From Kribbella antiqua (GTDB lineage: Bacteria; Actinomycetota; Actinomycetes; Propionibacteriales; Kribbellaceae): a stretch of DNA of 64,000 nt. The stretch spans positions 186,001-250,000 of the forward strand of contig NZ_SLWR01000011.1 of assembly GCF_004345665.1 (NCBI RefSeq), read 5' to 3'. The notes beneath the pieces were generated by a model. It saw only the letters and a list, made by a program, of their open reading frames with translations, ran no database searches and had not been told where the DNA came from. Of the stretch, positions 15,490 through 31,508 are shown in pieces (the first letter of the stretch is position 1; every line of letters begins with the position of its first letter). The translations under genes were made by a program, and so were the position numbers.

Positions 15490-15606
15490 GCTGGCGCTCC
15501 TTCGGTCGCGTCGAGCCTCCATGGTGACCGGGCGCGGCCGCGCGCAACGCCGACAGACTGTAGGATTTCGGGTTGTCAGCCGACGATCTGTCGGGAAGGA
15601 GCACGG

Positions 15607-17151
15607 ATGGCTATCCTCACCGTCAGGCAGGTGCTCGAGCTGCCGGTCGTCCGTGGCGCTGGTCCCCAGCTGCTCGCCGGTTCGGCTGGTCTCGATGGCG
15701 AGGTCCGGTGGGTGCACTCCGCCGAGCTCGCCGAGATCGCCCCGCTGCTGCGCGGCCGCGACCTGCTGCTCAGCACGGGTATCGCCCTCCCGGACACGGC
15801 CGAAGGATTACGCGAGTACGCCGTCAGCCTCAGCGAGAGCGACGCCGCCGGCCTCGTGATCGAACTCGGCCGGCGCTGGCATCAGGTGCCAACCGCGCTG
15901 GTCGATGCCTGCGCGGAGCTCGAACTGCCGCTGGTCGCGTTGACCCACGAAGTGCGCTTCGCGGCAATCACCCAAGTCGTGGGCGAACGCATCGTCAACG
16001 ACCAGGTGGAGGAGTTGCGCGAAACACATCGAGTGCACGAGACCTTCACCGAGCTCAGCATCGCCGAGGCCGGACCACGCGAGATCCTCGAAGCCACTCA
16101 GCGGCTCGCGGGCGCGGCCGTCGTACTGGAGAGTGACCAGCATCAGGTCCTCGACTACCGCACCGGTCCCGCGGACATCGCTGAGTTCCTCGCTGACTGG
16201 CCGGCTCGGTCTCGCGGCCTCCGGATGGACGGGCGAACCGGGTGGGACGAACAGAACGGCTGGCTCGTCACCCAACTGGGCAAACGTGACCGGGGTTGGG
16301 GCCGGCTCGTCGTACAGGCTCCGGAGCGACCGTCACCGCGCTTGATCGCGGTGGCCGAACGGGCGGCGGCCGCGCTGGCCATGCATCGCCTGCACGACCG
16401 GGATCGCGACAGTCTCGTGCGTCGCGTTCACCATGAACTCCTGCTCGGGTTGCTGACCGACCCGACCGATGCCGATGTCCTGCGCCGCTGCGAGCTCACC
16501 GGGTTGCCGGTGGCCAAGCGCCAGTTCGTCGGCCTGACGTTGCGCCCGCAGGTCCCTGATACGTCGCTGGTGGAGTCCGCCGTGCGTACGGCGTACGACC
16601 TCAAGGCGCCGGCATTGGTCTGCGAGGTGGACAGCGACGTACGCGTGCTGCTCTCGTTGGCCGCGTCGGCGAATGCGGACCGGATCGTGAACGAGCTGGC
16701 GAACCGGGTCGCCCGGCGGCACCCGATCGTCGCCGGCGCTGGCCGACCCGCCGGGCGGCCAGGCGAGATCGACCGGACGCTGAAGGAAGCGCAACATGTC
16801 GTTGACTCCCTTCGTTCCGGGGCGACCGGCCAGGTCGTCCATCGGCTGGAAGACGTTCATCTGCGGGGATTGTTGACGATGCTCGCCGACGACGAACGGC
16901 TGCGGTTGTTCGTCTCTCGCGAGTTGGACGCTTTGAAGGAGTACGACGAGCTGGTCGAGGCCGTACGGGCGCTGCTCCTGCACCCGGTCAGCAAGTCCGA
17001 AGCTGCGGCGAGCCTGCATCTGTCCAGACCCGCCTTCTACGACCGGATCGCCAAGGCCGAGCGCCTCCTCGGCGTCAGCCTCGACGACCCGGACATCCGC
17101 GTTTCGCTACATGTCGCGCTGCTCGCGGACTCAGGCTGGGGCGGCGGATAA
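15607..17151 (+). CDS. PucR family transcriptional regulator
   Basis: 514 residues. The N-terminal PucR domain (TVRQVLELPVVRGAGP onward, to about 130) leads into a central GGDEF-like segment and a C-terminal helix-turn-helix of the PucR/CdaR kind near residues 455-500 (SEAAASLHLSRPAFYDRI). A GGAAGGAG ribosome site precedes the ATG at 15607. It is divergent from mmsA across about 117 bases, so it very probably controls the mmsA-aminotransferase pair, in line with PucR regulators of purine, GABA or beta-alanine breakdown. Confidence 0.92.
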   Translation: MAILTVRQVLELPVVRGAGPQLLAGSAGLDGEVRWVHSAELAEIAPLLRGRDLLLSTGIALPDTAEGLREYAVSLSESDAAGLVIELGRRWHQVPTALVDACAELELPLVALTHEVRFAAITQVVGERIVNDQVEELRETHRVHETFTELSIAEAGPREILEATQRLAGAAVVLESDQHQVLDYRTGPADIAEFLADWPARSRGLRMDGRTGWDEQNGWLVTQLGKRDRGWGRLVVQAPERPSPRLIAVAERAAAALAMHRLHDRDRDSLVRRVHHELLLGLLTDPTDADVLRRCELTGLPVAKRQFVGLTLRPQVPDTSLVESAVRTAYDLKAPALVCEVDSDVRVLLSLAASANADRIVNELANRVARRHPIVAGAGRPAGRPGEIDRTLKEAQHVVDSLRSGATGQVVHRLEDVHLRGLLTMLADDERLRLFVSRELDALKEYDELVEAVRALLLHPVSKSEAAASLHLSRPAFYDRIAKAERLLGVSLDDPDIRVSLHVALLADSGWGGG

Positions 17152-17256
17152 GTGGTGTTCGACGATCAGCCAGCGACCGTCGATCTTCTCGTAGGCATAG
17201 GTAGGGTTGGTGACAGTTGGTTGCCCAGATGGTTGCCCTCAACAACCGGAGGACGA

Positions 17257-18270
17257 GTGCTCGAGATCAGTGGCCTGACCTGGGCCGTCACGATCGGCCT
17301 GATCGTCGTACTGCTGGCTGTGGACCTGGTGATCGCCGCGGTCCGTCCGCATCGCGTCGGGTTCAAGGAAGCGGCCGCGTGGTCGATTTTCTACGTGCTG
17401 GTGGCGATCGCGTTCGGCCTGTGGTTCATGTCGGCGTACGGCGGCTCGTTCGGCGCGGAGTACTTCGCCGGCTACATCGTCGAGAAGAGCCTGTCGGTCG
17501 ACAACCTGTTCGTGTTCGTCATCATCATGACCACGTTCGCCGTACCGGAGGAGCATCAGCACAAGGTGCTGACCTTCGGGATCGTGCTGGCGCTGGTCAT
17601 GCGGGCGATCTTCATCGCGCTCGGGGCGACGTTGCTGTCGCTGTTCTCGTTCATGTTCTTGCTGTTCGGGTTGCTGCTGCTGTACACCGCGGTGCAGCTG
17701 TTCCGGCATCGCAACGAGGACCCGGACGTCGAGGACAACGTGATCGTGAAGACGGCCCGGCGGGTGCTCCCGGTCAGCGACGACTACGTCGGCGGCAAAC
17801 TCCTCGCCCGGATCGACGGTCGCAGCGTCGTCACGCCGCTGTTCGTCGTACTGGTCGCGATCGGCGGGGTCGACCTGCTCTTCGCGCTGGACTCCATCCC
17901 CGCGGTCTTCGGCGTCACCGAGGAAGCGTTCATCGTCTTCGCCGCGAACGCCTTCGCCCTGCTGGGCCTGCGCGCCCTGTTCTTCCTGGTCAAGGGCCTG
18001 CTCGACCGGCTCGTCTACCTCTCCGCCGGCCTCGCCGTCATCCTCGCCTTCATCGGCGTCAAGCTGATCCTGCACTGGGCCCACGTCGACATCGACGACC
18101 GCATCCCCGAGGTCCCCACCTCCCTCAGCCTCACCGTCATCATCACCATCCTCGCCGTCGTAGTCATCGCCAGCCTCCTCAAAACCCGCAAAGACCCCAC
18201 CGCCAAAGCCCACGCCGGCTCCCTCCACCCCCACCACCCAGCCCACGAGCCCGATAACACCCCCAACTGA
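17257..18270 (+). CDS. TerC family integral membrane protein
   Basis: 337 residues from the GTG at 17257, preceded by GGAGGACGA. It has seven to nine membrane helices. TerC signatures are clear: EKSLSVDNLFVF in the third helix region and LLFALDSIPAVFGVT, with conserved acidic residues inside the membrane. The family is linked to tellurite resistance and to manganese or calcium export, in some bacteria metallating exoenzymes. It stands alone after the PucR gene and converges on the MFS gene with 12 bases between. The C-terminal tail is His/Pro-rich. Confidence 0.9.
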   Translation: MLEISGLTWAVTIGLIVVLLAVDLVIAAVRPHRVGFKEAAAWSIFYVLVAIAFGLWFMSAYGGSFGAEYFAGYIVEKSLSVDNLFVFVIIMTTFAVPEEHQHKVLTFGIVLALVMRAIFIALGATLLSLFSFMFLLFGLLLLYTAVQLFRHRNEDPDVEDNVIVKTARRVLPVSDDYVGGKLLARIDGRSVVTPLFVVLVAIGGVDLLFALDSIPAVFGVTEEAFIVFAANAFALLGLRALFFLVKGLLDRLVYLSAGLAVILAFIGVKLILHWAHVDIDDRIPEVPTSLSLTVIITILAVVVIASLLKTRKDPTAKAHAGSLHPHHPAHEPDNTPN

Positions 18271-19693: not shown

Positions 19694-20470
19694 CTACCCC
19701 AGGTTGCTCGAGTAATGGAAGCGGACCCGGGCTCCCAGCCAGACGGTCCGGGAGGTCTGGATCAGGGTCGGGCCGGATCTGCTGATCGACCAGTCGAGGA
19801 AGACCTGGGAATCGTTCGCGGCCTCGAGCAGGACCGCTTCCACCGAATTGACCGAGCGGACCTCGAGGATGTGGTCGACGGTGGTCTCGAAGATGCCGTG
19901 CTCGTCGAGGCTCTTGGAGACGGAACCGTCGACGAGAGTCGTCCCGCGCAGCGCGTCGGCGGAGGCGCCCGCCAGCCACGAGTCGGTGACACCGATCGGC
20001 TTGTGGTTGACGACGTGGAGCCGCTTGAGGTGGAGGCGTGGCATCTCCCGCTCTTCGGGCGTGAGTGCCCGCGCAAGCTCGTACGGCTCGTCCTCGACCG
20101 CCGCGGCGGTGAGGTGGATCGACTCGGCGTCTTTGCCGGCCTGACGGAACCTGTCCCGCCAGGGAGTGGTCAATCCGAAGTCATGCTGAACCTGACGGGG
20201 CCTGTCGGCGACGAAGGTGCCCGCACCCTGCTTGCGCTCGACGTACCCCTCGTCGGCGAGCGAGGCGAGGGCCTGCCGCACGGTGATGCGGCTGACGTCG
20301 TAGATCTGGGCGATCTCTTTCTCGGTCGGCAGCTGGCTGCCGATCTCGAGTTCCTGCTCGATGAGGGCGCGGAGGTCGCGTTCGACCTGAGCCCAGGCCG
20401 GCAGCGGGAGCTTCCGGTTCACCGGGGTAGCCATCACGCGGAGCGGATGCGTATCCGACGTGACAGCCAT
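19694..20470 (-). CDS. GntR/HutC family regulator with UTRA domain
   Basis: 258 residues. The winged helix at about residues 30-90 contains QLPTEKEIAQIYDVSRITVR, followed by a UTRA ligand-binding domain (HLTAAAVEDEPYELARAL onward). An internal ATG at residue 13 is an alternative start. It lies at the 3' end of the long minus-strand nucleoside/ribose cluster, 44 bases after the SIS gene, and is its most likely regulator, sensing a sugar phosphate or nucleoside. Sites of the form GGTYAN-N6-NTRACC at 29590-29607 and 27814-27831 are candidate targets. Confidence 0.92.
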   Translation of the reverse strand: MAVTSDTHPLRVMATPVNRKLPLPAWAQVERDLRALIEQELEIGSQLPTEKEIAQIYDVSRITVRQALASLADEGYVERKQGAGTFVADRPRQVQHDFGLTTPWRDRFRQAGKDAESIHLTAAAVEDEPYELARALTPEEREMPRLHLKRLHVVNHKPIGVTDSWLAGASADALRGTTLVDGSVSKSLDEHGIFETTVDHILEVRSVNSVEAVLLEAANDSQVFLDWSISRSGPTLIQTSRTVWLGARVRFHYSSNLG

Positions 20471-20514
20471 GTTTCCACCCGTTTCCCGTACGTTTTGAGG
20501 TCATAACATTGATA

Positions 20515-21462
20515 TCACTTGTCCGGCGTCGAGACCGCCCAGCCGTCGAGCTTGATGTGGCTGGCGTCCATGTTGACGGCGCCACCGCGGAACGGCGGGC
20601 GGCCCCAGCGCTTGGCGGCGCCACCGGCGAACAGGCTGGCGAACACCGCGCCGCTGAGTTCACGCAGAAGACCGTCGGCTGAGCCGATCTGGATCTGCAG
20701 CACCGTCTGCCCAGCGTGCTCGAGCGCCTGCTGGAGGCGGTCGAACCGCTGCTGCCCCGCCCCGCCGATGAGCTGCAGTACGACGTGCGGCTGCGGCCCG
20801 ATGAAGTAGTCGACGTGCCCCGACTCCTCGAGCGCGACCGTGCGTACCGACACACCGGTCGCCTCGATCAGCTTGAGCATGAAGAAGTCCCCAGCACCGC
20901 GCAGGTCCGGCAAAGTGAGGACGGAGATCCCAGTCGGAGCGGCGCCAGGCAGCTGCCCGATCGCCTCCTCGACGGACGCGTCGACGTCGCTGAGGACCTT
21001 CGCCAGCTGACGAGCCGCACCCGTGGTGTCCTGCCCGCAGACAGCCGCGACGCCGAGGCCGAGCATGAGATGACCGCCGACCGGAATCTCCTCGTCGATC
21101 CCGAGACTCGGCACCAGCTGCAATTCGTCCGCCTCGGCCGCCAGCGGCGAATCCGGGTTGGACGTGATCGCCGCCACCCGAGCACCAGCCGCGCGCGCGA
21201 TACGAAGCGCCTGCACGGTCGCGCCCGAAGTGCCGGAGTGCGAGATCCCGACGACCGCGTCTGTGGCGGCCGGAAGGGCACCCATCCAGGTGATGTCCCC
21301 GGACGACATCGCCCGATGCCCGTACGACGTCGCGAGCAGAGCCGAGGAAAGTGAGTCGCCAGAGCCGACGAAGACAGCACCTTGCGGGAGCGGTGACGCG
21401 ACCATCGGCTGAACATCAGCGATGGTGTCGAGGGCGGCCGTCAGCCGGGCGGTGATGCTCAT
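20515..21462 (-). CDS. SIS domain sugar isomerase/aldolase-like protein
   Basis: 315 residues from the ATG at 21462. Two SIS-type phosphosugar-binding halves: FVGSGDSLSSALLA near residue 30 and VVGISHSGTSGATVQAL near 70-85, the Ser/Thr-rich phosphate loop. There is no glutaminase domain, so it is not a full GlmS. It resembles SIS proteins that bind or isomerise ketose or aminosugar phosphates. The start overlaps the PfkB kinase stop by 4 bases (ATGA), so kinase and SIS protein are coupled and probably act in sequence on the same sugar phosphate. Confidence 0.88.
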   Translation of the reverse strand: MSITARLTAALDTIADVQPMVASPLPQGAVFVGSGDSLSSALLATSYGHRAMSSGDITWMGALPAATDAVVGISHSGTSGATVQALRIARAAGARVAAITSNPDSPLAAEADELQLVPSLGIDEEIPVGGHLMLGLGVAAVCGQDTTGAARQLAKVLSDVDASVEEAIGQLPGAAPTGISVLTLPDLRGAGDFFMLKLIEATGVSVRTVALEESGHVDYFIGPQPHVVLQLIGGAGQQRFDRLQQALEHAGQTVLQIQIGSADGLLRELSGAVFASLFAGGAAKRWGRPPFRGGAVNMDASHIKLDGWAVSTPDK

Positions 21463-22340
21463 GGCACAACCTCCTGTTTGGCGTGGATGTGGTCGAGTGG
21501 ATGGTCGAAGGGCTCGCCGCTGACGAGACCAGCGGATCCCCAAGTGGACAACGCGATCCGAGCGACGCTCGCGCCGAAGAGAGCGGCGGTCGCGAGATCG
21601 GTGCCGATGGCAAGCGCCGCGACGATCGCGCCCGCGCTCGCGTCCCCGGCACCCGTGGTCTCCTCGACCCGCACGGCGTCGTCGACGACATGCCATGCAC
21701 GTCCCCGATGTACGACGTACATGCCGTCAACATCGAGGCGTGCGATCACAGCGCAGTCGAACTCGGCCGCAAGCCGCGCGGCCGCCGTACGAGGATCATC
21801 GCCAAGCAACCGCAGCTGCACGCGACTGGGCAGCAGGATCCCACCAACAGGAAGGACCCGCCGAAGGTAGGCGATTCCTTCCCGCTTCATTAGGACCTGG
21901 TGCGGGTCGACGCCCACGATCGTATCGGCGGCCAGTCCGTCGTACGGCGAAGAGCGCAGCAGGCCGTCGAGTCCACGAAGGAACTCCGGAGCCGGCACCG
22001 GCTCCGGAGCCGCGAAGGTGTCGCCAGCTCCGAGCTCGGTTTCGCCGGCTGTGCTGACGATTCGACGTCCTTCAGGTGAGTTGAGAATCCAGACCTTCTC
22101 GATCGTGCCGACGGAAGTCGCGAAGCTGACGTCGACGCCCAGCCGGTTGAAGGTCGAGCGGAAGCGGTCGTCGTCATCGGGCAACGCGGTCGCGAGCACC
22201 GGTACGACGCCGTCCACGAGCCGCGCGCCGAGGGTCGCGTACAGCCCCGGACCGCCGAGCTCGTTGAACCTCGGCTCGTGGCCGACCATCACCAGGTGAT
22301 CCACCGTGAGCCCGGCGACGACGCCGATTCTTGTGCCCAT
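21459..22340 (-). CDS. PfkB family sugar/nucleoside kinase
   Basis: 293 residues from the ATG at 22340. The N-terminal substrate motif FNELGGPGLYATLGA and the C-terminal anion-hole/catalytic motif ETTGAGDASAG, with the general-base Asp, are intact, so it should be active. It overlaps YjbQ upstream by one base (TGATG) and the SIS gene downstream by four. Ribose, a ribonucleoside or a related sugar is the expected substrate from the cluster. This is the canonical kinase of the two PfkB proteins in the cluster. Confidence 0.92.
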   Translation of the reverse strand: MGTRIGVVAGLTVDHLVMVGHEPRFNELGGPGLYATLGARLVDGVVPVLATALPDDDDRFRSTFNRLGVDVSFATSVGTIEKVWILNSPEGRRIVSTAGETELGAGDTFAAPEPVPAPEFLRGLDGLLRSSPYDGLAADTIVGVDPHQVLMKREGIAYLRRVLPVGGILLPSRVQLRLLGDDPRTAAARLAAEFDCAVIARLDVDGMYVVHRGRAWHVVDDAVRVEETTGAGDASAGAIVAALAIGTDLATAALFGASVARIALSTWGSAGLVSGEPFDHPLDHIHAKQEVVP

Positions 22341-22771
22341 CAGAATGTCTGCAACGCGTACTGGACGGTGCGATCGCGCGGCCCGTCCAGCTCGAGGAGG
22401 TACACGCCCTGGCTGTGGCCGATGCCGAGCTCGCCGCCGACGACAGGCAGCTGCAGCGACTGGACGCCGAAGACGCAACGGACGTGGGCGGCCGCGTCCT
22501 GCGGTCCGTCGTGCAGGTGCACGAAGGGGCGGTCGGTCGGGACCTGCTCCTCGATGAAGATGCGGATGTCCTGCAGCGTCGTACCGTCCACGCCCGAGTT
22601 GAAGATCAGGGTCGCTGTCGTGTGCGGAAGGAAGATATGCAGTACGCCGTCGCCGTGGTCGCCGCGAGCCGCGTCGCGAAGCTGGGGCGTCACGTCGACG
22701 TAATGAACCGGGTTGGCGTATCCCTCCTTCGGACTGGTGTTGACGGGGAAGCTGGTCCAGGTGCCGGGCAT
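22340..22771 (-). CDS. yjbQ: YjbQ / UPF0047 family protein
   Basis: 143 residues, full length for this compact family. The family core is clear: VLHIFLPHTTATLIFN in the middle and ELGIGHSQGVYLLELDGPR at the C-terminus, with conserved His residues in HTTAT and near GHSQG. Members are annotated as secondary thiamine-phosphate synthases, a weak side activity; the physiological role is unsettled. Here it sits inside a nucleoside/ribose operon, which suggests a role on a phosphosugar or nucleoside. That is inference from position only. Confidence 0.9.
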   Translation of the reverse strand: MPGTWTSFPVNTSPKEGYANPVHYVDVTPQLRDAARGDHGDGVLHIFLPHTTATLIFNSGVDGTTLQDIRIFIEEQVPTDRPFVHLHDGPQDAAAHVRCVFGVQSLQLPVVGGELGIGHSQGVYLLELDGPRDRTVQYALQTF

Positions 22772-22792
22772 AGGTTTCTCTTTCCTCGTAGG

Positions 22793-24745
22793 TCAGTTGG
22801 TACGGATTTCGACGCCGTCGGCCGACAGGGTTCCGGTCTCGATCAGGAAGCCGGCGCCTCCGCCGGCGAGCTGTGAGGTGGTGGCGGTGAGGACTGTGTG
22901 GCCGTCGATCTCGAGTTCCAGCCGACGGCCGACAGCAGACAAGGCGACGTCGTACCGCCGGTCCAGTTCGTAGGCGAAATCACGACGCGCGAGCACGATC
23001 CGGTCGGCATCACGCTGTTCGATCAGCTCGACACCGGCCGCTCGGAAGATCGCTGCGATGAATCTCCGGTGTCCACGAGCACGTACGACGAGACCGCCGG
23101 CTTCATGCAGTGAGAAGACCAGGGTCGAACGGATGCTGTAGTCGAGCCAGTCTCGAGTCCCGGTGGTGACAACGCCCAGCTCGTCCGGATGGGAAACCGA
23201 GAAGGTGGTTGCAAAATCCGCCTCGAAGTTCTTCGCCGAACTCACCCAAGGCGCCAGCGCCACAGGCTTGGTATCCCAGATGGAAGACAGCAGAACCCCC
23301 GACTGCCCCCAGCACCGAGGCGCGCCGATCCAGTCCACCGCGGTGATCCGTACGGCGGCGCCGGACAACTCGAGGCCGAGCCGGAACGGCACCGCATTGC
23401 CAACCGTCGGGATCTCCCACGCAATCTCCCCGGCGCCGTCCACCGCCATCGCCTCGCCCCGTTCGACGTGCACACCCCCGCCCGTGCTGTAGACGGCGTA
23501 CGGCGCGACGTCGGCGGGAGCTTCGGAGTTCAGCCGGACGTGAACCGTTTGCGTCGAGTACAGGGTCGGGCTCGCCACGGTCGAGAAGTTCGTGACTGTC
23601 TCGGCGGGGTCGAGGAAGGTTGTGGTCGAGATACCACCTGGCTGATAAGGGCAACTGGTCCAGCCATGCGTCGAGCCAGGAAACTCGAAGTCGAAGCGAG
23701 GACGCCTCGGAGCCGGCGCGCGGCCGGCCAGGCGATCGGCGGAGGCGACGATGCGCCAGGCCTCCCGTGCCGCGTCGGTCACGGTCTCGCCGCCGTCGGC
23801 GCTGACGACGATGGCGCGGTCGGCGATTGGATCCCGGAGTCGTTGGGGAATGGCGGCCAGGCCGAGGCGGATTCCGTTGAGGCAGCCGACCGTGCCGGCG
23901 TTGCTGTCGGTGTCGAAGCCGACTGAGGAGGCGACGGCGACCGCGCGGGTGAAGTCGTCGCCGCCAAGTCGGAGGGCTGCCAGGGACATGGCGAGGTTCG
24001 AGAGGGCGTGGCACGGGCCGGGATAAAGCGCATAGCCGTAATGACGGTCCACCCAGTCGCGGACCTCTCGCCAATCCGAGCCGCTGTCGACCCGTTCGAC
24101 CACGTTGTCGATGAGCGACACGAGGCGTACGTCGTCGACGTACTTGCGGCCGAGGTCGATGAGCGACTCGAGTTCGCGGGTGTCGAAAGCGGCAGCGCGC
24201 ATGGCAGCCAGGAAGCCGGCGCATTCGAGGGCGACGCCGTCGTGGCTGACGCTGGCGGCCGCGCGGGTCAAAGCGACGGCGGCGGAAGGATCGCCGGGGT
24301 GCATCATGGCGAACGCGTCGGAGAAGATCTGCGCGCCGATCTGTTCCGCGAGGGTGGACCCGTTGACAGCGATCGAGCCGCTGCCCGGCGCCGGGATGCC
24401 GCGGCGGAGGTTCAGGTACGCCGTGTGCTCGGTGGAGCGTCCGTACCCGCCCCACCAGAGGATCGTGCGGTCCTCGATGACGTAGTTCAGCCAGGTCCGC
24501 CCGACGTCGGCGGCCTCGACCTTCACTGCGTCCTCGACGACCCGGGCGAAGGTGAAAGTGCCGGAGATGTCGTCGTCCGCGACCACGATCGGCAGCCCGA
24601 GTTCCGGTGCGACGTACCGATCGACCAGCCCGAAGCGCTGCTGGATGTCGTCGTACGGCCATCCCTCGACCGGACGGCCGAGGTACACCCCGATGAACTT
24701 CCCGAGGACACCGGCATAGACCTTCTCTGCCCAAGCGGTGTTCAT
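22793..24745 (-). CDS. ADP-ribosylglycohydrolase with C-terminal beta-sandwich
   Basis: 650 residues from the ATG at 24745, which overlaps the permease stop (ATGA). The N-terminal about 330 residues are an ADP-ribosylglycohydrolase (DraG/ARH-like) fold: GVLGKFIGVYLGRPVEGWPY at the start, the metal-binding VADDDISGTF near residue 55, and the second metal motif VGFDTDSNAGTVG near 285. The remaining about 300 residues are beta-rich, probably a concanavalin-like lectin/glucanase fold of unknown role. It has no signal peptide, so it acts in the cytosol on something imported, most likely hydrolysing an N- or O-ribosyl bond. Confidence 0.88.
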   Translation of the reverse strand: MNTAWAEKVYAGVLGKFIGVYLGRPVEGWPYDDIQQRFGLVDRYVAPELGLPIVVADDDISGTFTFARVVEDAVKVEAADVGRTWLNYVIEDRTILWWGGYGRSTEHTAYLNLRRGIPAPGSGSIAVNGSTLAEQIGAQIFSDAFAMMHPGDPSAAVALTRAAASVSHDGVALECAGFLAAMRAAAFDTRELESLIDLGRKYVDDVRLVSLIDNVVERVDSGSDWREVRDWVDRHYGYALYPGPCHALSNLAMSLAALRLGGDDFTRAVAVASSVGFDTDSNAGTVGCLNGIRLGLAAIPQRLRDPIADRAIVVSADGGETVTDAAREAWRIVASADRLAGRAPAPRRPRFDFEFPGSTHGWTSCPYQPGGISTTTFLDPAETVTNFSTVASPTLYSTQTVHVRLNSEAPADVAPYAVYSTGGGVHVERGEAMAVDGAGEIAWEIPTVGNAVPFRLGLELSGAAVRITAVDWIGAPRCWGQSGVLLSSIWDTKPVALAPWVSSAKNFEADFATTFSVSHPDELGVVTTGTRDWLDYSIRSTLVFSLHEAGGLVVRARGHRRFIAAIFRAAGVELIEQRDADRIVLARRDFAYELDRRYDVALSAVGRRLELEIDGHTVLTATTSQLAGGGAGFLIETGTLSADGVEIRTN

Positions 24746-25554
24746 CCCTTCACCGCGCCACTCGCCATACCGTCCACGACGTACCGCTGGAGGGCGATGA
24801 ACGCGCCCAGAATCGGGACGATCAGGATGAGCGCACCCGCCATCATCGTGCCCATGTCGGTGGAGAACGTGCCGTTCATGGTCAGGTAGCCGAGGGTGAG
24901 TGTCTGGTCCTCCGGGTTCTGCAGGAACGTCGAGGACAGCAGGAACTCGTTCCACGCGTTCAGGCCGACGATCACGCCGACGGTGATGAGCCCCGGCCGG
25001 ACAATGGGAAACAGGATCCACCGCAGCAGTCCGAACGTACTGACGCCATCGGCCAGCGCCGCTTCCTCGATCTCCGCGGGGACGTTGAGGAAGAAGGTCC
25101 GCATCAGGAAGGTCGCGAACGGAATGTTGACCGCGGCAAGGATCACGCCCACGACCGCCACATTGTCGGTCAGATTGAGCGAGGCGACCCCGGCGTACAG
25201 CGGAAAGATGAACAGCTGAATCGGAACGGTCATCGCCATCGTCAGATAGGTCATGATCGCCGACGACGTCCGCACCCGGCGCCCGGCCAGCACATATCCG
25301 GCAAGCGACGACGCGATCAGCACGACGAGCACAGCCGTGCCGGTGAGCAAGATGCTGTTCAGAAACCCCTTGGTGAACTGCCCGTAGTTCCAAGCGGTGG
25401 AGAAGTTCCCGAAGCTGAACGACGACGGCGGTTTGAACGGATTGGACAGAATCTCCGGGTTGGTCTTGAAGCTGTTGATCAGCACCAGCAGTAGCGGAAT
25501 CAGCGCCACCGCCGCGAAGAACGCCAGTACGACGTAACCGAGCGCCCGCCTCAT
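24742..25554 (-). CDS. Carbohydrate-type ABC permease (MalG side)
   Basis: 270 residues, six membrane helices, with the EAA loop IEEAALADGVSTFGLLRWI near residues 170-188 and a C-terminal VVDGMASGAVKG typical of the CUT1 MalG component. The start ATG at 25554 overlaps the previous permease by 4 bases, and the stop overlaps the ADP-ribosylglycohydrolase start by 4 bases. Tight coupling of permease and hydrolase suggests the imported solute is the hydrolase substrate. Confidence 0.93.
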   Translation of the reverse strand: MRRALGYVVLAFFAAVALIPLLLVLINSFKTNPEILSNPFKPPSSFSFGNFSTAWNYGQFTKGFLNSILLTGTAVLVVLIASSLAGYVLAGRRVRTSSAIMTYLTMAMTVPIQLFIFPLYAGVASLNLTDNVAVVGVILAAVNIPFATFLMRTFFLNVPAEIEEAALADGVSTFGLLRWILFPIVRPGLITVGVIVGLNAWNEFLLSSTFLQNPEDQTLTLGYLTMNGTFSTDMGTMMAGALILIVPILGAFIALQRYVVDGMASGAVKG

Positions 25555-26423
25555 TCGGTCACGTCCCGCCGGCTGAGCCAGGTGTAGACGCACGAGGCGA
25601 TGAGGCCGAAGAAGCTCATGATCAGACCGACCGCGGCCGCTTTCCCGAACTCGAACGACGAGAACGCGAAGGCGTAGGCATACGTCCCCATCACCTCGCT
25701 CGAGCGGGCCGGACCGCCCTGGGTGAGCAGGTAGACGTAGTCGAAGGCGAGGAACGAGAAGATCACCGTCATCACGCCCATCAGCAGCAGCGTCGGCCGG
25801 ATGCTGGGCAGATAGACGTGGCGGAAGACCTTCCAGCTTCCCGCACCGTCGACGACGGCGGCTTCGACCTGGTCCATCGGGGTCTGCCGCATCGCGCCGA
25901 GGTAGACGACGGTGAGGAAGCCGAAGTAGTGCCACATGTCGACGATCGCCGCGCCGTACAAGGAGGTACGGACGCTCGCCGTTGGCGGCTGGAGGCCGAA
26001 GAACCCGAAGATGCCGCCGTTCGGGTTGTAGATGATCGTCTGCCAGACCAGCGCGTTGACGACGGGCGCGAGTACGTACGGCATCAGGTAGATCACCTGG
26101 AAGAACGTCCGCATCTTCCGGCGGCGGAGCAGCAGGGTCGCGGTGAGCAGACCGATGATGGCCGGCACCGTGAGGAACAGGACGACCCACTTGATGTTGT
26201 TCAGCAACGCCGTACCGAACACGTTGTCGGCCAGGATGTCGCGGAAGTTCTGCAGGCCGATGAAGTTGTACGACGGGCCGATGCCGCTCCAGTCGGTGAA
26301 GGACAGGACGACGGTGAAGATGCCCGGGACGACGACGATTCCGATGGACAGGATGAGCGCCGGCGCGATCAGACCGTAACCGATCAGCTCGCGCCGGCGT
26401 GCCATCCGCCCGTACTGACTCAC
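25551..26423 (-). CDS. Carbohydrate-type ABC permease (MalF side)
   Basis: About 290 residues, six membrane helices, EAA loop VEAAVVDGAGSWKVFRHV near residues 195-212, followed by the FDYVYLLTQGGPARSSEV motif typical of MalF-type subunits. The start is uncertain. Tandem GTG codons at 26426 and 26423 follow the lipoprotein stop at once, and an ATG lies at 26405; I chose the GTG at 26423. It pairs with the product of 24742-25554. No ATP-binding subunit is encoded here. Confidence 0.9.
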   Translation of the reverse strand: MSQYGRMARRRELIGYGLIAPALILSIGIVVVPGIFTVVLSFTDWSGIGPSYNFIGLQNFRDILADNVFGTALLNNIKWVVLFLTVPAIIGLLTATLLLRRRKMRTFFQVIYLMPYVLAPVVNALVWQTIIYNPNGGIFGFFGLQPPTASVRTSLYGAAIVDMWHYFGFLTVVYLGAMRQTPMDQVEAAVVDGAGSWKVFRHVYLPSIRPTLLLMGVMTVIFSFLAFDYVYLLTQGGPARSSEVMGTYAYAFAFSSFEFGKAAAVGLIMSFFGLIASCVYTWLSRRDVTE

Positions 26424-26427
26424 CACG

Positions 26428-27783
26428 TCAGCTGGACGGTTCCGGGAGCGGCGGCACCAGCTTCTTCTCCAGCTCACCCTGGAAGGTCGTGTTCACCTTC
26501 GTGAGGAAGTCCTGCGCGGACTCCCGACCGAGCCAGACCGAGTCGATGTTGGTGAACTCGGCCGCCGTCGCGGGCGGGAAGAACGTGCCGGCGAAGAAGC
26601 CGTAGTGGCCGTCGTTCACGCCCTTGATGGTGTTCTTGATCGAGGCAACGAACGGCTTCGACAGACCGGTGTAGTCGTTCGGGTCGAGGTTGAAGTTCTT
26701 CAGCGGAACGGCCCAGTAGCCCGGCCAGTCCTTGTTCATCTCCTTGGCGAACGAGTCGCTCAGCATGTAGTCGATCACCTCGGCGGCGCCGTCCTTGTTC
26801 TTGGAGGCGGCGTTGATCGACAGCGACGCGGTGGTGCCGAGCGTGTAGTACGGCGACGGCAGCGAGGTGTTGATCGTCGGGAACGGGATGTACCCGAGGT
26901 CCGCGACGTTGCCAGCCTTGTCGTTGAAGTACGTCGATGCGAACTGGAATGCCAGGCTCGGACCGATGAAGAACGGCGACTTGCCCTTCGAGAGCAACTG
27001 CATGGACGTGTCGAAGTTCAGCGTCTGGTAGTCCTTACCGCCGAGGTAGCCGGCCTGGTAGAACTTCGCGGACTCCTCGACCGCCTTGACGATCGCTGGA
27101 TCGGTCCACGGGATCTTGCCCTGCAGAGCGTCGTACACGGTCTTGCCGCCCGCGTCGACGGTGAGGAACTGGCTGATGTAGTTCTGGTTGACCGGCTTCC
27201 AGCCCTGGTTACCGGTGACGGACGGATGCAGGCCGGCGGCCGCCGCCTTGTCCATCACCGCGGTGAGCTCAGCGAAGGTCGTCGGGACCTTCACGCCGAG
27301 CTGGTCGAGCACCTTCTTGTTGTAGAAGACCCCGATGTCCTCGATCGAGTTCGGCAGCGAGTAGAGCTTGCCGTTCACCGTTCCCGACTTGTACATCGGG
27401 TCGAGGATCCGGCTCTCCCAGCCGTACTTCTCGGAGTACGGCGTCATGTCGGCGAGCTTGCCCTGGACGGCGTACGCGGCGGAGAACGCGGGGCCCGAGC
27501 CGTAGACGACGTCCGGGCCCTTGTTGGCGCTCAGCGCGACCTGGATGTTCTTGTCCACGGCGTTGTTGAACGTCACGGTCAGGGTGTACTTGTCCTGGCT
27601 CTGGTTGAACCCCTCGATCAGGACCTTCTTCATCGTGGCCTGGTGATCGGGCGGCGCGCCCCAGAACCAGAACTGCAGGGTCTGGCGGCCGCCAGAGCCG
27701 CCAGACCCCGAGTCACCACTCGAGCAGCCGGCCAGGGCGAGGACTGCGGCAGACACGATCGCGATCAGGCGCTTCTTCTTCAT
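26428..27783 (-). CDS. ABC transporter solute-binding lipoprotein
   Basis: 451 residues with a signal peptide and lipobox LALAGCSS (Cys20), then a Gly/Ser spacer and a CUT1-type binding domain. It begins with TLQFWFWGAPPDHQ and later has NGKLYSLPNSIEDIGVFYN, the usual hinge region. It heads the transport genes of the nucleoside/ribose cluster. 30 bases upstream of the start lies an imperfect copy (27814-27831) of the 18-bp inverted repeat found at 29590. The ligand is inferred to be a nucleoside or ribosyl compound from the enzymes around it; a plain sugar cannot be excluded. Confidence 0.92.
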   Translation of the reverse strand: MKKKRLIAIVSAAVLALAGCSSGDSGSGGSGGRQTLQFWFWGAPPDHQATMKKVLIEGFNQSQDKYTLTVTFNNAVDKNIQVALSANKGPDVVYGSGPAFSAAYAVQGKLADMTPYSEKYGWESRILDPMYKSGTVNGKLYSLPNSIEDIGVFYNKKVLDQLGVKVPTTFAELTAVMDKAAAAGLHPSVTGNQGWKPVNQNYISQFLTVDAGGKTVYDALQGKIPWTDPAIVKAVEESAKFYQAGYLGGKDYQTLNFDTSMQLLSKGKSPFFIGPSLAFQFASTYFNDKAGNVADLGYIPFPTINTSLPSPYYTLGTTASLSINAASKNKDGAAEVIDYMLSDSFAKEMNKDWPGYWAVPLKNFNLDPNDYTGLSKPFVASIKNTIKGVNDGHYGFFAGTFFPPATAAEFTNIDSVWLGRESAQDFLTKVNTTFQGELEKKLVPPLPEPSS

Positions 27784-27813
27784 GGCCGGGCCTCGCTGCT
27801 CAAACGGATCATT

Positions 27814-27831
27814 GGTTAGGTTGTATTGACC
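27814..27831. promoter_or_regulatory. Imperfect operator copy before the ABC lipoprotein
   Basis: GGTTAG-N6-TTGACC has the same 18-bp architecture as the perfect repeat at 29590-29607, with four of six arm pairs complementary. It is placed where a repressor would block transcription of the transport genes. Confidence 0.45.
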
Positions 27832-27854
27832 GTAGGACCATTGATCTCAGGGTG

Positions 27855-28742
27855 TCAAGCGATTCCCAACCATCGGCTGCCCTCCGCGGTCGCGGCGTCC
27901 ATCGCGGCCAGCTCGACGACGCCTTCGAGCGCGATGTCCATACTCGAGTGGTGGCCGGCGCCGGCCTGGAACGGCTTGTTCGCGATCACGTTGTCGGCGA
28001 CCGAGCACACCGATCCACCGCGCTTGCCGAAGAGCGCTGCGAGGGTGACGATCGCGGCCGACTCACGATCGCCGTTGAGCACACCGGCGCGGGCCCAGGT
28101 CTCGAAGATCTCCAGGTGCCAGGGCTGGAAGTAGCCGCCCACACTCGGACGCCCGACTCCGCAGAAGTCGCTGTCGCTCGATCGGGTGACGCCGACGTGA
28201 TAGGTCTGCCCGAGTCTTTCAGCCGCGCGCGACATCGCGACGACGACTTCGTAGGAGCTCACCGCCGGGTACGACGCGGGGATGTAGGCCCGGGTCATAC
28301 CTTCATCCCGGACCACACCCGAGCTCACGACCACATCACCGGGCTCGACCCTGGGATGGATGCCGCCGGATCCCCCGACCCGGATGAAGGTGTCCGCTGC
28401 GGTGAACTCGAGCAGTTCGTGCATGATCAGCTCGGCCTCGGGCGATCCGCTGCCGCCGGAGACTGTCGTGATCGGAACGCCCTGGTAGCTCCCGGTCCAG
28501 GTCGTGAACATGCCGGACTTGCCGATCTGCTCGGCGTCGTCCATCCGTCGTGCGAGCTGCGTTGCCGGGTCGTCGTCGTACGCACAGAGCGGATCGCGGA
28601 CGGTCAGCAGGACATAGCGCGCGACCTTGCCGGGATCGAACTGCGACAGTGCAGGCCGACCGTCGATCAGGAGGCCGCGCTTGGGCACGTTGCCCGCGAA
28701 CTTGTAGCCGTCGTAGATCGCGGACGGATCCCATTCGGTCAT
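27855..28742 (-). CDS. Nucleoside phosphorylase (PNP/UDP family)
   Basis: 295 residues, cytosolic. The PNP_UDP_1 fold is indicated by TVRDPLCAY, the glycine-rich YQGVPITTVSGGSGSPEAE (phosphate region), FIRVGGSGGIHP, and the C-terminal LNGDRESAAIVTLAALFG with VCSVADNV, which carries the Asp position of this family. The layout is closer to uridine phosphorylases than to hexameric PNP. The expected reaction is a nucleoside plus phosphate giving ribose 1-phosphate plus base. It overlaps the upstream PfkB gene by 4 bases. Substrate choice (uridine, inosine or a modified nucleoside) cannot be settled from sequence. Confidence 0.88.
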   Translation of the reverse strand: MTEWDPSAIYDGYKFAGNVPKRGLLIDGRPALSQFDPGKVARYVLLTVRDPLCAYDDDPATQLARRMDDAEQIGKSGMFTTWTGSYQGVPITTVSGGSGSPEAELIMHELLEFTAADTFIRVGGSGGIHPRVEPGDVVVSSGVVRDEGMTRAYIPASYPAVSSYEVVVAMSRAAERLGQTYHVGVTRSSDSDFCGVGRPSVGGYFQPWHLEIFETWARAGVLNGDRESAAIVTLAALFGKRGGSVCSVADNVIANKPFQAGAGHHSSMDIALEGVVELAAMDAATAEGSRWLGIA

Positions 28743-29566
28743 GAAGATGCCTTTCTGATCACTGCTGGAGTACCGGCCGACGAGACGACGACGCCGGCGG
28801 CCTCCGCTGCGGCACGCCCGGCCGCGGCGGGGTCTCCGGTCGCGGCATAGATGGCGATGAAGGCTCCCGAGTAGCTGTTGCCTCCTCCCGTCGGGTCTTT
28901 GGGAATCACCGGGATGGCGGGGACCTCGATGCGCTCAGATCCTTTGATCACCAGGGATCCGCGCTCGCCGGCGCGCAGCACCACGATCGGGGCAAGGTCG
29001 GCCAGACGGCTGTCACCGAGCAGCGCCTCGGCCTCCGCGACGTTGATCGAGAGCACGTCGATGGTCGCGGCGAGTTCGCGAACCCGTGCCAGGTGCGACG
29101 GGTGACAGGAGTCGCGGGAGATCTCCCAGAGGATCGGGTGGGGCAGTTGACCGACCTGATCCCAGTACGACGCCTCGTGCGCGTGGAAGAGATACACACC
29201 GGCCAGCTCCGACTGTGGCAGGTGACGCGGGAGCGGTGTATGCGCCTCGAAGTGCTCGAGGCCGTAGACCGGTGTCTCCACTCGATCGCCGTCGTCGAAG
29301 TACTCGATGTGAGTCCGTGGGCTGTGCTCGCCGACGTCGAACAGTCCGCTCGGATCGATGCCGCGCGATGTCGCCCACTCAGTGATCGCCGGCCGATCCG
29401 CCCGTCCCACCCCGGAGACGATGAGCGCGCGGCCGGGTTCGCTGACAAGGCTGGCGCCGACGGCCGCGTAGGCGCCCGCGCCGCCGATCTGTTCGACACT
29501 TTCGGTCTCGCCTGGTCGATGGATCTCGTCGATGACGACATGCGAGAGGATCGCGATCTTTTTCAC
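28739..29566 (-). CDS. PfkB-like protein with GGGN in place of GAGD
   Basis: 275 residues from the GTG at 29566, with GAGGAGG upstream. The PfkB/ribokinase fold is clear: QIGGAGAYAAVGASL at the N-terminus and DPTGGGNSYSGAF at the C-terminus. In canonical kinases the latter is TGAGD with the catalytic Asp. Here Asp is replaced by Asn and Ala by Gly, as in the fungal MAK32-like branch. It is the first gene of the long minus-strand run and overlaps the phosphorylase by 4 bases. It may be a slow or non-catalytic sugar-binding homologue, working with the canonical PfkB kinase at 21459-22340. Confidence 0.88.
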   Translation of the reverse strand: MKKIAILSHVVIDEIHRPGETESVEQIGGAGAYAAVGASLVSEPGRALIVSGVGRADRPAITEWATSRGIDPSGLFDVGEHSPRTHIEYFDDGDRVETPVYGLEHFEAHTPLPRHLPQSELAGVYLFHAHEASYWDQVGQLPHPILWEISRDSCHPSHLARVRELAATIDVLSINVAEAEALLGDSRLADLAPIVVLRAGERGSLVIKGSERIEVPAIPVIPKDPTGGGNSYSGAFIAIYAATGDPAAAGRAAAEAAGVVVSSAGTPAVIRKASS

Positions 29567-29589
29567 CCGGAACCTCCTCTTGGTCCTAA

Positions 29590-29607
29590 GGTTATGCTTT
29601 TATAACC
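29590..29607. promoter_or_regulatory. Perfect 18-bp inverted repeat in the divergent gap
   Basis: GGTTAT-GCTTTT-ATAACC, arms fully complementary, in the 44-bp space between the start of the PfkB-like gene (29566, minus) and the nucleoside hydrolase (29611, plus). One bound regulator would cover both start regions. The best candidate is the GntR protein at 19694-20470. Confidence 0.7.
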
Positions 29608-29610
29608 CAT

Positions 29611-30558
29611 GTGACCAACGTGCTCATCGACACCGACCCCGGCATGGATGACGCGATCGCTCTTGCCGTCGCGCACAAATCGCCGCTGCTGACCATCAGG
29701 GCGATCACGGCCGTGACCGGCAACCTGCCGGCCGACCGCACATCCGCGAACGCTCTGAGGGTGCTCGACCTGCTCGGTGCCGCTGACCTCCCGGTCGCCC
29801 AGGGACCGCTCGAGCCTTCTGCGGGCGACTATCCGGTGGACCCTTTCTCGCACGGTTCCGACGGCCTCGCGGAGTCCCACTTCCCGGAGTCTTTGCGGCG
29901 TCTCGACGTACGGACGGCTGCGGAGCTGATCGTCGACACCGTCAACGCTCATCCCGGCGACATCACGATCTGTGGGCTCGGGCCGATGACGAACGTCGCC
30001 GCGGCGCTGGACCTCGACCCCCTGTTGCCGGAGAAGGTCAGCCGCCTGGTCATCATCGGTGGTTCGTTCGGCGTGACGCCGTACGCGTGGTCGCAGGCAA
30101 CCGGCGCGAACCCGGTCAGCGAGTGGAACGTCTTCGTCGATCCCGAGGCGGCCCGCCGGGTCTTCCATGCCGGGTTCGACCTGCTGGCGGTCGGACTCGA
30201 CGTCGGCACGCATCCGCGGATCAACTTCCGTCCGGCCGATCTCGACAAGCTTCGGGCCTCGGACCGGCCGGAGGCAGAGTTCGCCGTACGTGTGGTGGAC
30301 TTCGTCAACGGGCGCGGATACCAGTCCTACTGCTCACTCATCGACAGTACGGCGATCGCCGCGGTCATCGACCCGGCGATGGTCGAAACGGACACGGTGC
30401 TGTGCGACATTGCCCTCGGAGACCAGCTCACCCGGGGCATGACGGTGGTGGATCGCCGCAACCATCATGCCTGGACGGAGATGCCGCAGATCACCATCGC
30501 CACCGCGCTCGACTACGACCGCTTCCTCGACCTCGTCACCGCGGAGTTGATCCGATGA
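29611..30558 (+). CDS. Inosine/uridine-preferring nucleoside hydrolase family
   Basis: 315 residues. The calcium-binding N-terminal motif DTDPGMDDA is intact at residues 8-16, and the central GPMTNVAAAL and NPVSEWNVFVDPEAA segments (with N and D ligands) are present. It should hydrolyse purine or pyrimidine ribonucleosides to base and ribose. The start is the GTG at 29611. No Shine-Dalgarno is seen, because the bases upstream are the operator repeat, so a leaderless transcript is likely. It overlaps the adenine-deaminase-type gene by 4 bases. Confidence 0.93.
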   Translation: MTNVLIDTDPGMDDAIALAVAHKSPLLTIRAITAVTGNLPADRTSANALRVLDLLGAADLPVAQGPLEPSAGDYPVDPFSHGSDGLAESHFPESLRRLDVRTAAELIVDTVNAHPGDITICGLGPMTNVAAALDLDPLLPEKVSRLVIIGGSFGVTPYAWSQATGANPVSEWNVFVDPEAARRVFHAGFDLLAVGLDVGTHPRINFRPADLDKLRASDRPEAEFAVRVVDFVNGRGYQSYCSLIDSTAIAAVIDPAMVETDTVLCDIALGDQLTRGMTVVDRRNHHAWTEMPQITIATALDYDRFLDLVTAELIR

Positions 30559-31508
30559 TCAGGCAACTACCCAAGGCCGAACTGCACCTTCATCTCGAGG
30601 GCACGCTCGAACCGGAGACCATCCTCAAGCTCGCGGACCGGAACCGCATCCGGCTGCCTTATGCGGACGTCGACGACCTGGCCTCGCGCTACGACTTCAA
30701 CGATCTGCAGTCTTTTCTCGACCTGTACTACGCGAACATTGCGACGCTCCAGACACCTGAAGACTTCGCCGAGATGACGTCGGCCTACCTGGCTCGGGCG
30801 GTCGTCGCCGGTGTCCGTCATGCGGAGGTGTTCCTCGATCCGCAGGCCCACACCAGCCGCGGGGTGCCACTCGAAGTCGTGCTCGACGGGGTCGGATCCG
30901 TGCTCGCCGCGTCGCAACGGCGGTTCGGGGTCAGCACTGGGCTGATCGTGTCGATCCTGCGGGATCACAGTGCCGAGTCGGCGATGAGTACGCTCGACGC
31001 GGTCCTAGCCAGCGGTGTCGCCGTACTGGGCATCGGGCTGGATTCGGCTGAGGTCGGGCATCCGCCGTCGAAGTTCGTCGACGTGTTCGCCAAGGCGCGG
31101 GCCGAGGGTCTTCACACCGTCGCGCACGCCGGTGAAGAAGGTCCGCCCAGTTACGTCTGGGAGGCCCTTGATCTCTTGAAGGTCGAGCGAATCGACCACG
31201 GCATCCGGAGCCTGGAAGACGACGAGCTCGTACGGCGCCTCGCGGACGAGCAGATCCCGCTCACGGTCTGCCCGCTGTCGAATGTGCGGCTCCGAGTGGT
31301 GCCCGACATCTCGCAGCATCCGTTGCCCACAATGCTCGAGCGCGGCCTGCTGGTCACCGTGAACTCCGACGATCCGGCGTACTTCGGTGGATATGTCGAC
31401 GACAGCTACGAGGCGCTCGGGCTCCCTGCCGAGACGCTCCACACGCTGGCGGCCAACTCGATCCGAGCATCGTTCTTGAGCGACGCCCAGAAGTCAGCTC
31501 TGCTCTGA
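30555..31508 (+). CDS. Adenine deaminase-type amidohydrolase (adenosine deaminase fold)
   Basis: 317 residues. Metal-binding ELHLHLEG is near residue 11, the HAGEEGPPSYVWEAL segment near 197 carries His and the catalytic Glu, ERIDHGIRSLED follows, and NSDDPAYFGGYV near 275 gives the final Asp. HPPSKF, EEGPP and DDPAYFGGY are hallmarks of the adenine-deaminase branch (yeast Aah1, Pseudomonas PA0148 type) rather than true adenosine deaminase. It would turn adenine into hypoxanthine. Overlap with the nucleoside hydrolase supports a two-step route: adenosine to adenine plus ribose, then adenine to hypoxanthine. Confidence 0.88.
   Translation: MIRQLPKAELHLHLEGTLEPETILKLADRNRIRLPYADVDDLASRYDFNDLQSFLDLYYANIATLQTPEDFAEMTSAYLARAVVAGVRHAEVFLDPQAHTSRGVPLEVVLDGVGSVLAASQRRFGVSTGLIVSILRDHSAESAMSTLDAVLASGVAVLGIGLDSAEVGHPPSKFVDVFAKARAEGLHTVAHAGEEGPPSYVWEALDLLKVERIDHGIRSLEDDELVRRLADEQIPLTVCPLSNVRLRVVPDISQHPLPTMLERGLLVTVNSDDPAYFGGYVDDSYEALGLPAETLHTLAANSIRASFLSDAQKSALL

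Follow-up and report, generated by a model that had tools for sequence, protein, structure and literature searches.

A conserved actinobacterial gene cluster in Kribbella antiqua with a candidate role in the import and catabolism of a ribonucleoside-like compound

The frl operon combines a GntR regulator, an ATP-binding cassette (ABC) importer, a PfkB kinase and a double-SIS protein. In Escherichia coli, the yegTUVW genes encode a nucleoside-type major facilitator superfamily (MFS) transporter, the ADP-ribosylglycohydrolase YegU, the PfkB kinase YegV and the GntR regulator YegW/GgaR. YegU carries TDDT and DTDT motifs, and YegV carries GAGD. One report describes GgaR as a repressor of yegTUV with ADP-glucose as its signal and calls the functions of the genes unknown (PMC10819704). 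ADP-ribosylglycohydrolases occur in nucleoside- or sugar-type operons of E. coli and of actinobacteria, where their substrate is not known. Here we describe a cluster from Kribbella antiqua in which the same four classes as in yegTUVW adjoin. The cluster lies in a 64,000-nucleotide stretch of contig NZ_SLWR01000011.1 (positions 186,001 to 250,000), hereafter the window, from a genome of 8.1 Mb in 28 contigs. With moderate confidence, we read it from its sequence as a probably GntR-controlled unit that would import and catabolize something like a ribonucleoside, with adenine as the likely base and perhaps an extra sugar.

All 12 genes named in an initial annotation of the window were recovered at their coordinates, in two divergent and tightly packed units. 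The minus strand carries ten genes in the order PfkB2, NP (PNP_UDP_1 family), substrate-binding protein (SBP), permease A, permease B, ADP-ribosylglycohydrolase (ARH), YjbQ, PfkB1, SIS and GntR. The plus strand carries two, the nucleoside hydrolase (NH) followed by the deaminase. At six junctions, neighbouring genes overlap by 1 or 4 bases, including the 4-base overlap already described between permease and ARH (24742-24745), and the divergent PfkB2 and NH genes are 44 bases apart.

A scan of a contig collection returned 17 loci in other actinobacteria, for example in Agromyces, Arthrobacter, Streptomyces, Prauserella, Actinomyces and Corynebacterium-like bacteria. The set used for counting also comprises 17 clusters: 13 of these loci, the window, and G063, G102 and G634, which represent two genomes of the same genus and one of the same class. 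L011 and L020 were left out as their contigs stop short of the NP position (ARH is present in the L011 locus and on a separate contig of the L020 genome), as were L019, with YjbQ-PfkB1-SIS only, and L024, with NH-YjbQ-SIS only. Nine core proteins, NH, PfkB2, SBP, both permeases, YjbQ, PfkB1, SIS and GntR, were found by tblastn in 17/17 clusters, the window included; for several of those in G634 and L023, identity to the window's proteins is just 32-57%. Used as a marker, SIS proved rare, with matches in 3 genomes among the 293 sampled from the order and in 2 among the 394 from the class (E 1e-15; the source genome is counted in both), and it gave no match against plasmids. Because the gene set recurs in distant actinobacteria, the cluster is more than a chance grouping.

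The initial annotation is supported in that import, N-riboside cleavage and purine deamination belong to one conserved, probably co-regulated unit. That annotation had also named a pattern that would speak against it, transporter and hydrolase without nucleoside enzymes; NH is in fact present in every cluster. Conservation in all clusters extends to the nine core proteins but not to ARH and NP, both intact in 10/17 clusters, nor to the deaminase, which adjoins NH in 9/17. Gene order varies as well. NH is not divergent from PfkB2 in L015 and L022, the divergent gene in L021 is an ARH paralogue with NH behind it, and G634 has an uninterrupted row of ARH, a ribokinase-like gene, NH and the deaminase. 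In Actinomyces urinae (L023:396-1496), a nucleoside 2-deoxyribosyltransferase-family gene stands between NH and PfkB2. The deaminase of G102 lies about 10 kb from NH; the interval between the two (L030:1851-13693) holds another set of ABC importer genes as well as a GntR homologue and an NP paralogue (~61% identical).

ARH and NP are an accessory, separately dispensable pair and not part of the cluster core. Both are intact in the window, G063, G102, G634, L012, L013, L014, L016, L021 and L023. In the remaining 7/17 clusters both are absent or damaged while the importer and NH are retained; ARH is thus not the central component that it had been taken for. Specifically, tblastn found neither gene at the clusters of L015, L017, L018 and L022. 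L027 has an NP remnant of 49 residues and no ARH, NP is broken into several pieces and frames in L025 and L026, and the L026 ARH is without residues 73-466. On a midpoint-rooted tree of six core proteins, with support near 0.65 on two branches, the seven deficient clusters belong to three separate lineages (Streptomyces, L027 and Arthrobacter); to count these as three losses presumes loss, not gain. The row selection for this tree omitted permease B of L017 and PfkB1 of L026, both of which exist. The joint loss points to a common step.

Relatives of the pair also occur in other settings. Outside this cluster type, a locus of Arthrobacter Soil762 (L045:2107-12001) contains relatives of NP and PfkB2 and a GntR protein 64% identical to the window's, together with two IolE-like genes, a levoglucosan-dehydrogenase-like gene, an alcohol dehydrogenase and a separate ARH-PfkB-sugar-binding-protein set. 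Second ARH paralogues were noted in Prauserella, next to NH and the deaminase (L032:1305-3413; 48% identical), and in a Microbacteriaceae genome, next to the deaminase (L040:2715-4838; 43% identical).

The ARH protein scored 175.7 bits against PF03747 (ADP_ribosyl_GH; cut-off 26.2). Residues E27, D57-D58-D59 and D278-T279-D280-S281 were invariant in 12/12 aligned rows. Their counterparts in ARH1, set by motif and not by side-chain superposition, are Glu25, Ser54, Asp55, Asp56, Asp302, Asp304 and Ser305, as listed in a published account (PMC9738213). Thus, ARH retains its catalytic Glu and both acidic metal motifs, as in ARH1 and ARH3, but has Asp where the first of these motifs normally supplies a Ser/Thr ligand (DDDI). 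The same account states that ARH1 and ARH3 cleave alpha-linked and not beta-linked substrates (PMC9738213); the ARH-NP branch may therefore open alpha-linked ribosides. A structure predicted for ARH had a mean predicted local distance difference test score (pLDDT) of 74, with parts below 50. In fold searches of this model, residues 1-340 resembled ARH3 (6g1q, Z 28.7, root-mean-square deviation (rmsd) 3.5 over 293 residues) and residues 478-650 resembled CBM66 (Z 20.4); the matches span residues 2-342 and 478-650 only and barely cover the middle beta-sandwich. CBM66 domains bind fructosides.

NP had been annotated as a nucleoside phosphorylase, a role at odds with its motifs. Aligned with the solved uridine phosphorylase 3qpb, NP has RDPLC for GDPKR, SGMF for SREY (Arg to Gly) and RVGG for RVGT. 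We take the phosphate-binding positions to be those of E. coli uridine phosphorylase, and one such Arg (IRVG) is retained. VRDPLC occurs in 11/11 distinct NP rows spanning this motif and also in L045. The top NCBIfam model was uridine phosphorylase, at 167 bits under a cut-off of 280.3. From these residues, NP is more likely a nucleosidase than a phosphorylase. The two PfkB proteins differ from each other at the catalytic Asp, which in PfkB kinases sits in a GxGD motif. PfkB1 retains it (GAGD in 18/18 rows), but PfkB2 has Asn in 17/17 rows covering the site, and also in L045, and to judge from this substitution may not be a kinase. Because expected active-site residues are lost, NP is not to be assumed a normal phosphorylase nor PfkB2 a normal kinase. 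A more novel reading is that the cluster would catabolize disaccharide or alpha-linked nucleosides, such as 2'-O-ribosyladenosine derived from poly(ADP-ribose), with ARH and its sugar-binding domain plus a phosphate-independent NP as a new two-enzyme branch and PfkB2 in some other role. We regard this more novel reading as unlikely.

NH is conventional in appearance. The signature motif of nucleoside hydrolases is DTDPGxDD; NH contains IDTDPGMDD, scored 255 bits against PF01156 (cut-off 34.2) and matched solved relatives. The deaminase scored 309 bits against PF00962. Its nearest solved chains, matched over nearly the whole chain, were 3rys (417 bits) and 3ou8 (387 bits), followed by one at 144 bits and by mammalian adenosine deaminase at ~97. 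We take 3rys and 3ou8 to be adenine deaminases (their PDB names say adenosine deaminase), and presume that 3ou8 is the Pseudomonas aeruginosa enzyme. One report describes the adenine deaminase of that species as a reagent (PMC13316717). The label of adenine-deaminase-type enzyme in the initial annotation is therefore plausible: the nearest chains favour it, and two NCBIfam adenosine-deaminase models, both over cut-off (470.8 vs 419; 351 vs 216.55), weigh against it. The choice between adenine and adenosine alters the order of two steps and leaves the route unchanged.

L014, L015 and G634 have ribokinase-like genes within the cluster or next to it, scoring 243-275 bits with TIGR02152, and so, by BLAST only, does L022. 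The catalytic Asp is kept in the three proteins scored with the hidden Markov model. Because such genes accompany four related clusters, the release of ribose, proposed initially, is supported, and ribose is a likely product of the cluster. The best ribokinase-like gene of the window genome is located in a second ARH operon (L041:4978-12524), which comprises a LacI regulator, two sugar-importer permeases, two tandem ADP-ribosylglycohydrolases and the ribokinase-like kinase.

Since the families of NH and the deaminase are both well known, the cluster could be explained as ordinary adenosine/inosine scavenging by these two enzymes, with SIS, YjbQ and PfkB2 as passengers or minor steps. The ribokinase-like genes beside some clusters are consistent with such scavenging, and the route would be a textbook one if the deaminase were an adenosine deaminase, as the curated models say. 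However, YjbQ, PfkB1, SIS and PfkB2 are present in 17/17 clusters, including the seven without intact ARH and NP, so passengers are improbable. Moreover, the importer is of a sugar-binding type, and we know of no adenosine route that needs a double-SIS enzyme. Overall, we find ordinary scavenging a doubtful explanation.

The predicted SIS structure had a mean pLDDT of 90. Its fold matched the GlmS-type isomerase domain 2zj3 (Z 27.5, rmsd 3.3, 299 residues), with 2aml, 2cb0 and others tied. These searches placed SIS in the double-SIS group and did not separate isomerase, deglycase and deaminase. A second rival reading is an Amadori/fructosamine-type system like frl. In it, a glycated compound would be imported and phosphorylated by PfkB1, SIS would act as the deglycase, and the nucleoside enzymes would finish the degradation. 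The layout of the frl operon favours this scheme, and the structural matches of SIS include FrlB and FraB (8glr, Z 23.4; 9otr, Z 22.3). Nevertheless, SIS scored 19.9 bits against the curated FrlB model (cut-off 430), the window's PfkB1 had no FrlD model match at E 0.001, and GlmS-type domains fit SIS better (Z 27), a fold match that is not decisive for function. An frl-like system is thus very unlikely here. YjbQ scored 79 bits against TIGR00149 (cut-off 67.75), whose NCBIfam name refers to thiamine synthesis. Among the literature matches listed for YjbQ/UPF0047, the titles and abstract openings contained nothing on such a catabolic step.

In a comparison of SBP with solved structures, sugar-binding proteins prevailed among the best 60 of 418 chains. 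As these are sugar binders of a general kind, the search does not point to a particular ligand. The importer type also suits a furanoside or oligosaccharide uptake unit with recruited nucleoside-family enzymes, in which ARH would be a furanosidase and NP and NH would act on other glycosides. The CBM66-like domain of ARH and the altered motifs of NP fit such a unit, as does the Arthrobacter locus in which NP lies beside levoglucosan-dehydrogenase-like and IolE-like genes. The conventional appearance of NH and the deaminase argues against it, as does the nucleoside 2-deoxyribosyltransferase-family gene that Actinomyces urinae adds between NH and PfkB2. We judge a furanoside unit quite improbable.

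The NH-side promoter regions share an operator-like word. GTTAT/ATAAC occurred in 12/12 such regions against 1.63 expected, and in 11/14 regions upstream of GntR against 1.55 expected; in each case 0/2000 first-order resamplings were as high, figures that overstate independence as the regions are related by descent. The first count covers 12 of the 17 clusters (L018, L023, L026, G102 and G634 are outside it). The second covers 14 of 16 regions, with L015 and L022, where GntR is elsewhere, set aside; both had the word. It was also present in 10/13 regions upstream of SBP (no control run). A palindromic Gibbs search returned the shared ATAAC word and no clean palindrome. The recurrence of this word is consistent with the probable control of the cluster by GntR.

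The sequence itself shows which genes are present, how far they are conserved, where active sites are altered and that an operator-like word is shared, whereas all steps of the following route for a ribonucleoside-like compound are inferred. The ABC importer would take up a riboside, and NH would cut its N-glycosidic bond to yield base and ribose. The deaminase would convert adenine to hypoxanthine or, as an adenosine deaminase, yield inosine for NH to cleave. A ribokinase, whose gene adjoins the cluster in some relatives but has another location in the genome of the window, would convert ribose to ribose-5-phosphate. PfkB1 and SIS would act on another sugar or sugar phosphate, and a glycosylated nucleoside is therefore proposed. 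The ARH-NP branch would open a further riboside, perhaps alpha-ribosyl bonded.

Several observations weigh against this reading. Among them are the curated adenosine-deaminase matches, which slightly reduce our confidence in it. NH is over no curated NCBIfam cut-off and hence indicates no base preference, and every ribokinase match is below the TIGR02152 cut-off of 299.65 bits. The deaminase is not beside NH in 7/17 clusters. The second-sugar step is proposed solely from enzymes left over without a job. SBP resembles sugar binders in general, so that a plain oligosaccharide would be compatible, and the window's own gap before SBP is without the operator-like word. As for the ARH-NP pair, the catalytic domain of the L025 ARH still reads through, with only the C-terminal ~76 residues out of frame, and Arthrobacter Soil762 has a separate NP homologue with no window-type ARH at E 1e-15, although a different ARH lies within ~4 kb.

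Table 1. Features of the Kribbella antiqua cluster, with positions in the window
Feature	Position	Strand	Basis
GntR/UTRA (HutC-type) regulator	19694..20470	-	PF00392 + PF07702; homologue in 17/17 clusters
Gap upstream of GntR with GTTATGAC word	20471..20514	.	GTTAT/ATAAC in 11/14 such regions
SIS, double-SIS sugar-phosphate isomerase or deglycase (predicted)	20515..21462	-	PF01380; fold match 2zj3
PfkB1, predicted sugar kinase, intact GAGD	21459..22340	-	PF00294; GAGD in 18/18 rows
YjbQ/UPF0047 protein	22340..22771	-	PF01894; TIGR00149
ARH, ADP_ribosyl_GH domain + middle beta-sandwich + CBM66-like domain; accessory; 650 aa	22793..24745	-	PF03747
ABC importer permease B	24742..25554	-	PF00528
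ABC importer permease A	25551..26405	-	PF00528
SBP, substrate-binding lipoprotein (SBP_bac_1)	26428..27783	-	PF01547
NP, PNP_UDP_1 family, VRDPLC in place of GDPxR motif; accessory	27855..28742	-	PF01048
PfkB2, PfkB family, Asn at catalytic Asp position (GGGN)	28739..29566	-	PF00294
Divergent promoter region, operator-like word GGTTAT...ATAACC	29567..29610	.	GTTAT/ATAAC in 12/12 regions
NH, inosine-uridine type ribonucleoside hydrolase	29611..30558	+	PF01156; IDTDPGMDD motif
Purine deaminase, adenine or adenosine (A_deaminase family)	30555..31508	+	PF00962

Two other parts of the window were noted. Near the cluster (14728-18270) is a PucR-type purine-catabolism regulator with a TerC membrane protein directly after it. 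Further away (52031-54646), ricin-type lectin domains and BNR/sortilin-type repeats are combined in one protein.

Searches within the open-licence PMC literature gave no description of the full gene set. The initial claim of an undescribed system thus fits the full set within the literature searched, but its theme, ARH with a sugar kinase, a nucleoside-type transporter and a GntR regulator, is already known from yegTUVW. The latter differs in having an MFS transporter and not an ABC importer, and it is without NH, NP, deaminase, SIS, YjbQ and a second PfkB. Similarity at the protein level is weak and local: 29% over 204 residues for GntR and YegW, 36% over 84 for PfkB1 and YegV, and 31% over 39 for ARH and YegU. 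The classes correspond, and these matches did not identify the cluster as an orthologous member of a yegTUVW-type unit. From the frl/fra operons, the cluster differs by its nucleoside-family enzymes and by an FrlB model score far under cut-off. Its deaminase is similar to 3rys and 3ou8 over nearly the whole chain, and the deaminase gene overlaps that of NH. NP belongs to the same PNP_UDP_1 family as uridine phosphorylase but has lost the usual phosphate motifs. Finally, the cluster ARH shares with ARH1 and ARH3 the fold of residues 1-340 and the Glu, DD and DxDS motifs, whereas it has Asp for the first metal ligand, extra middle and CBM66-like domains, and a catabolic gene context. Should the branch to which it belongs break down alpha-ribosides or ribosylated nucleosides, a nutritional role would be added to a family known for the reversal of protein ADP-ribosylation.

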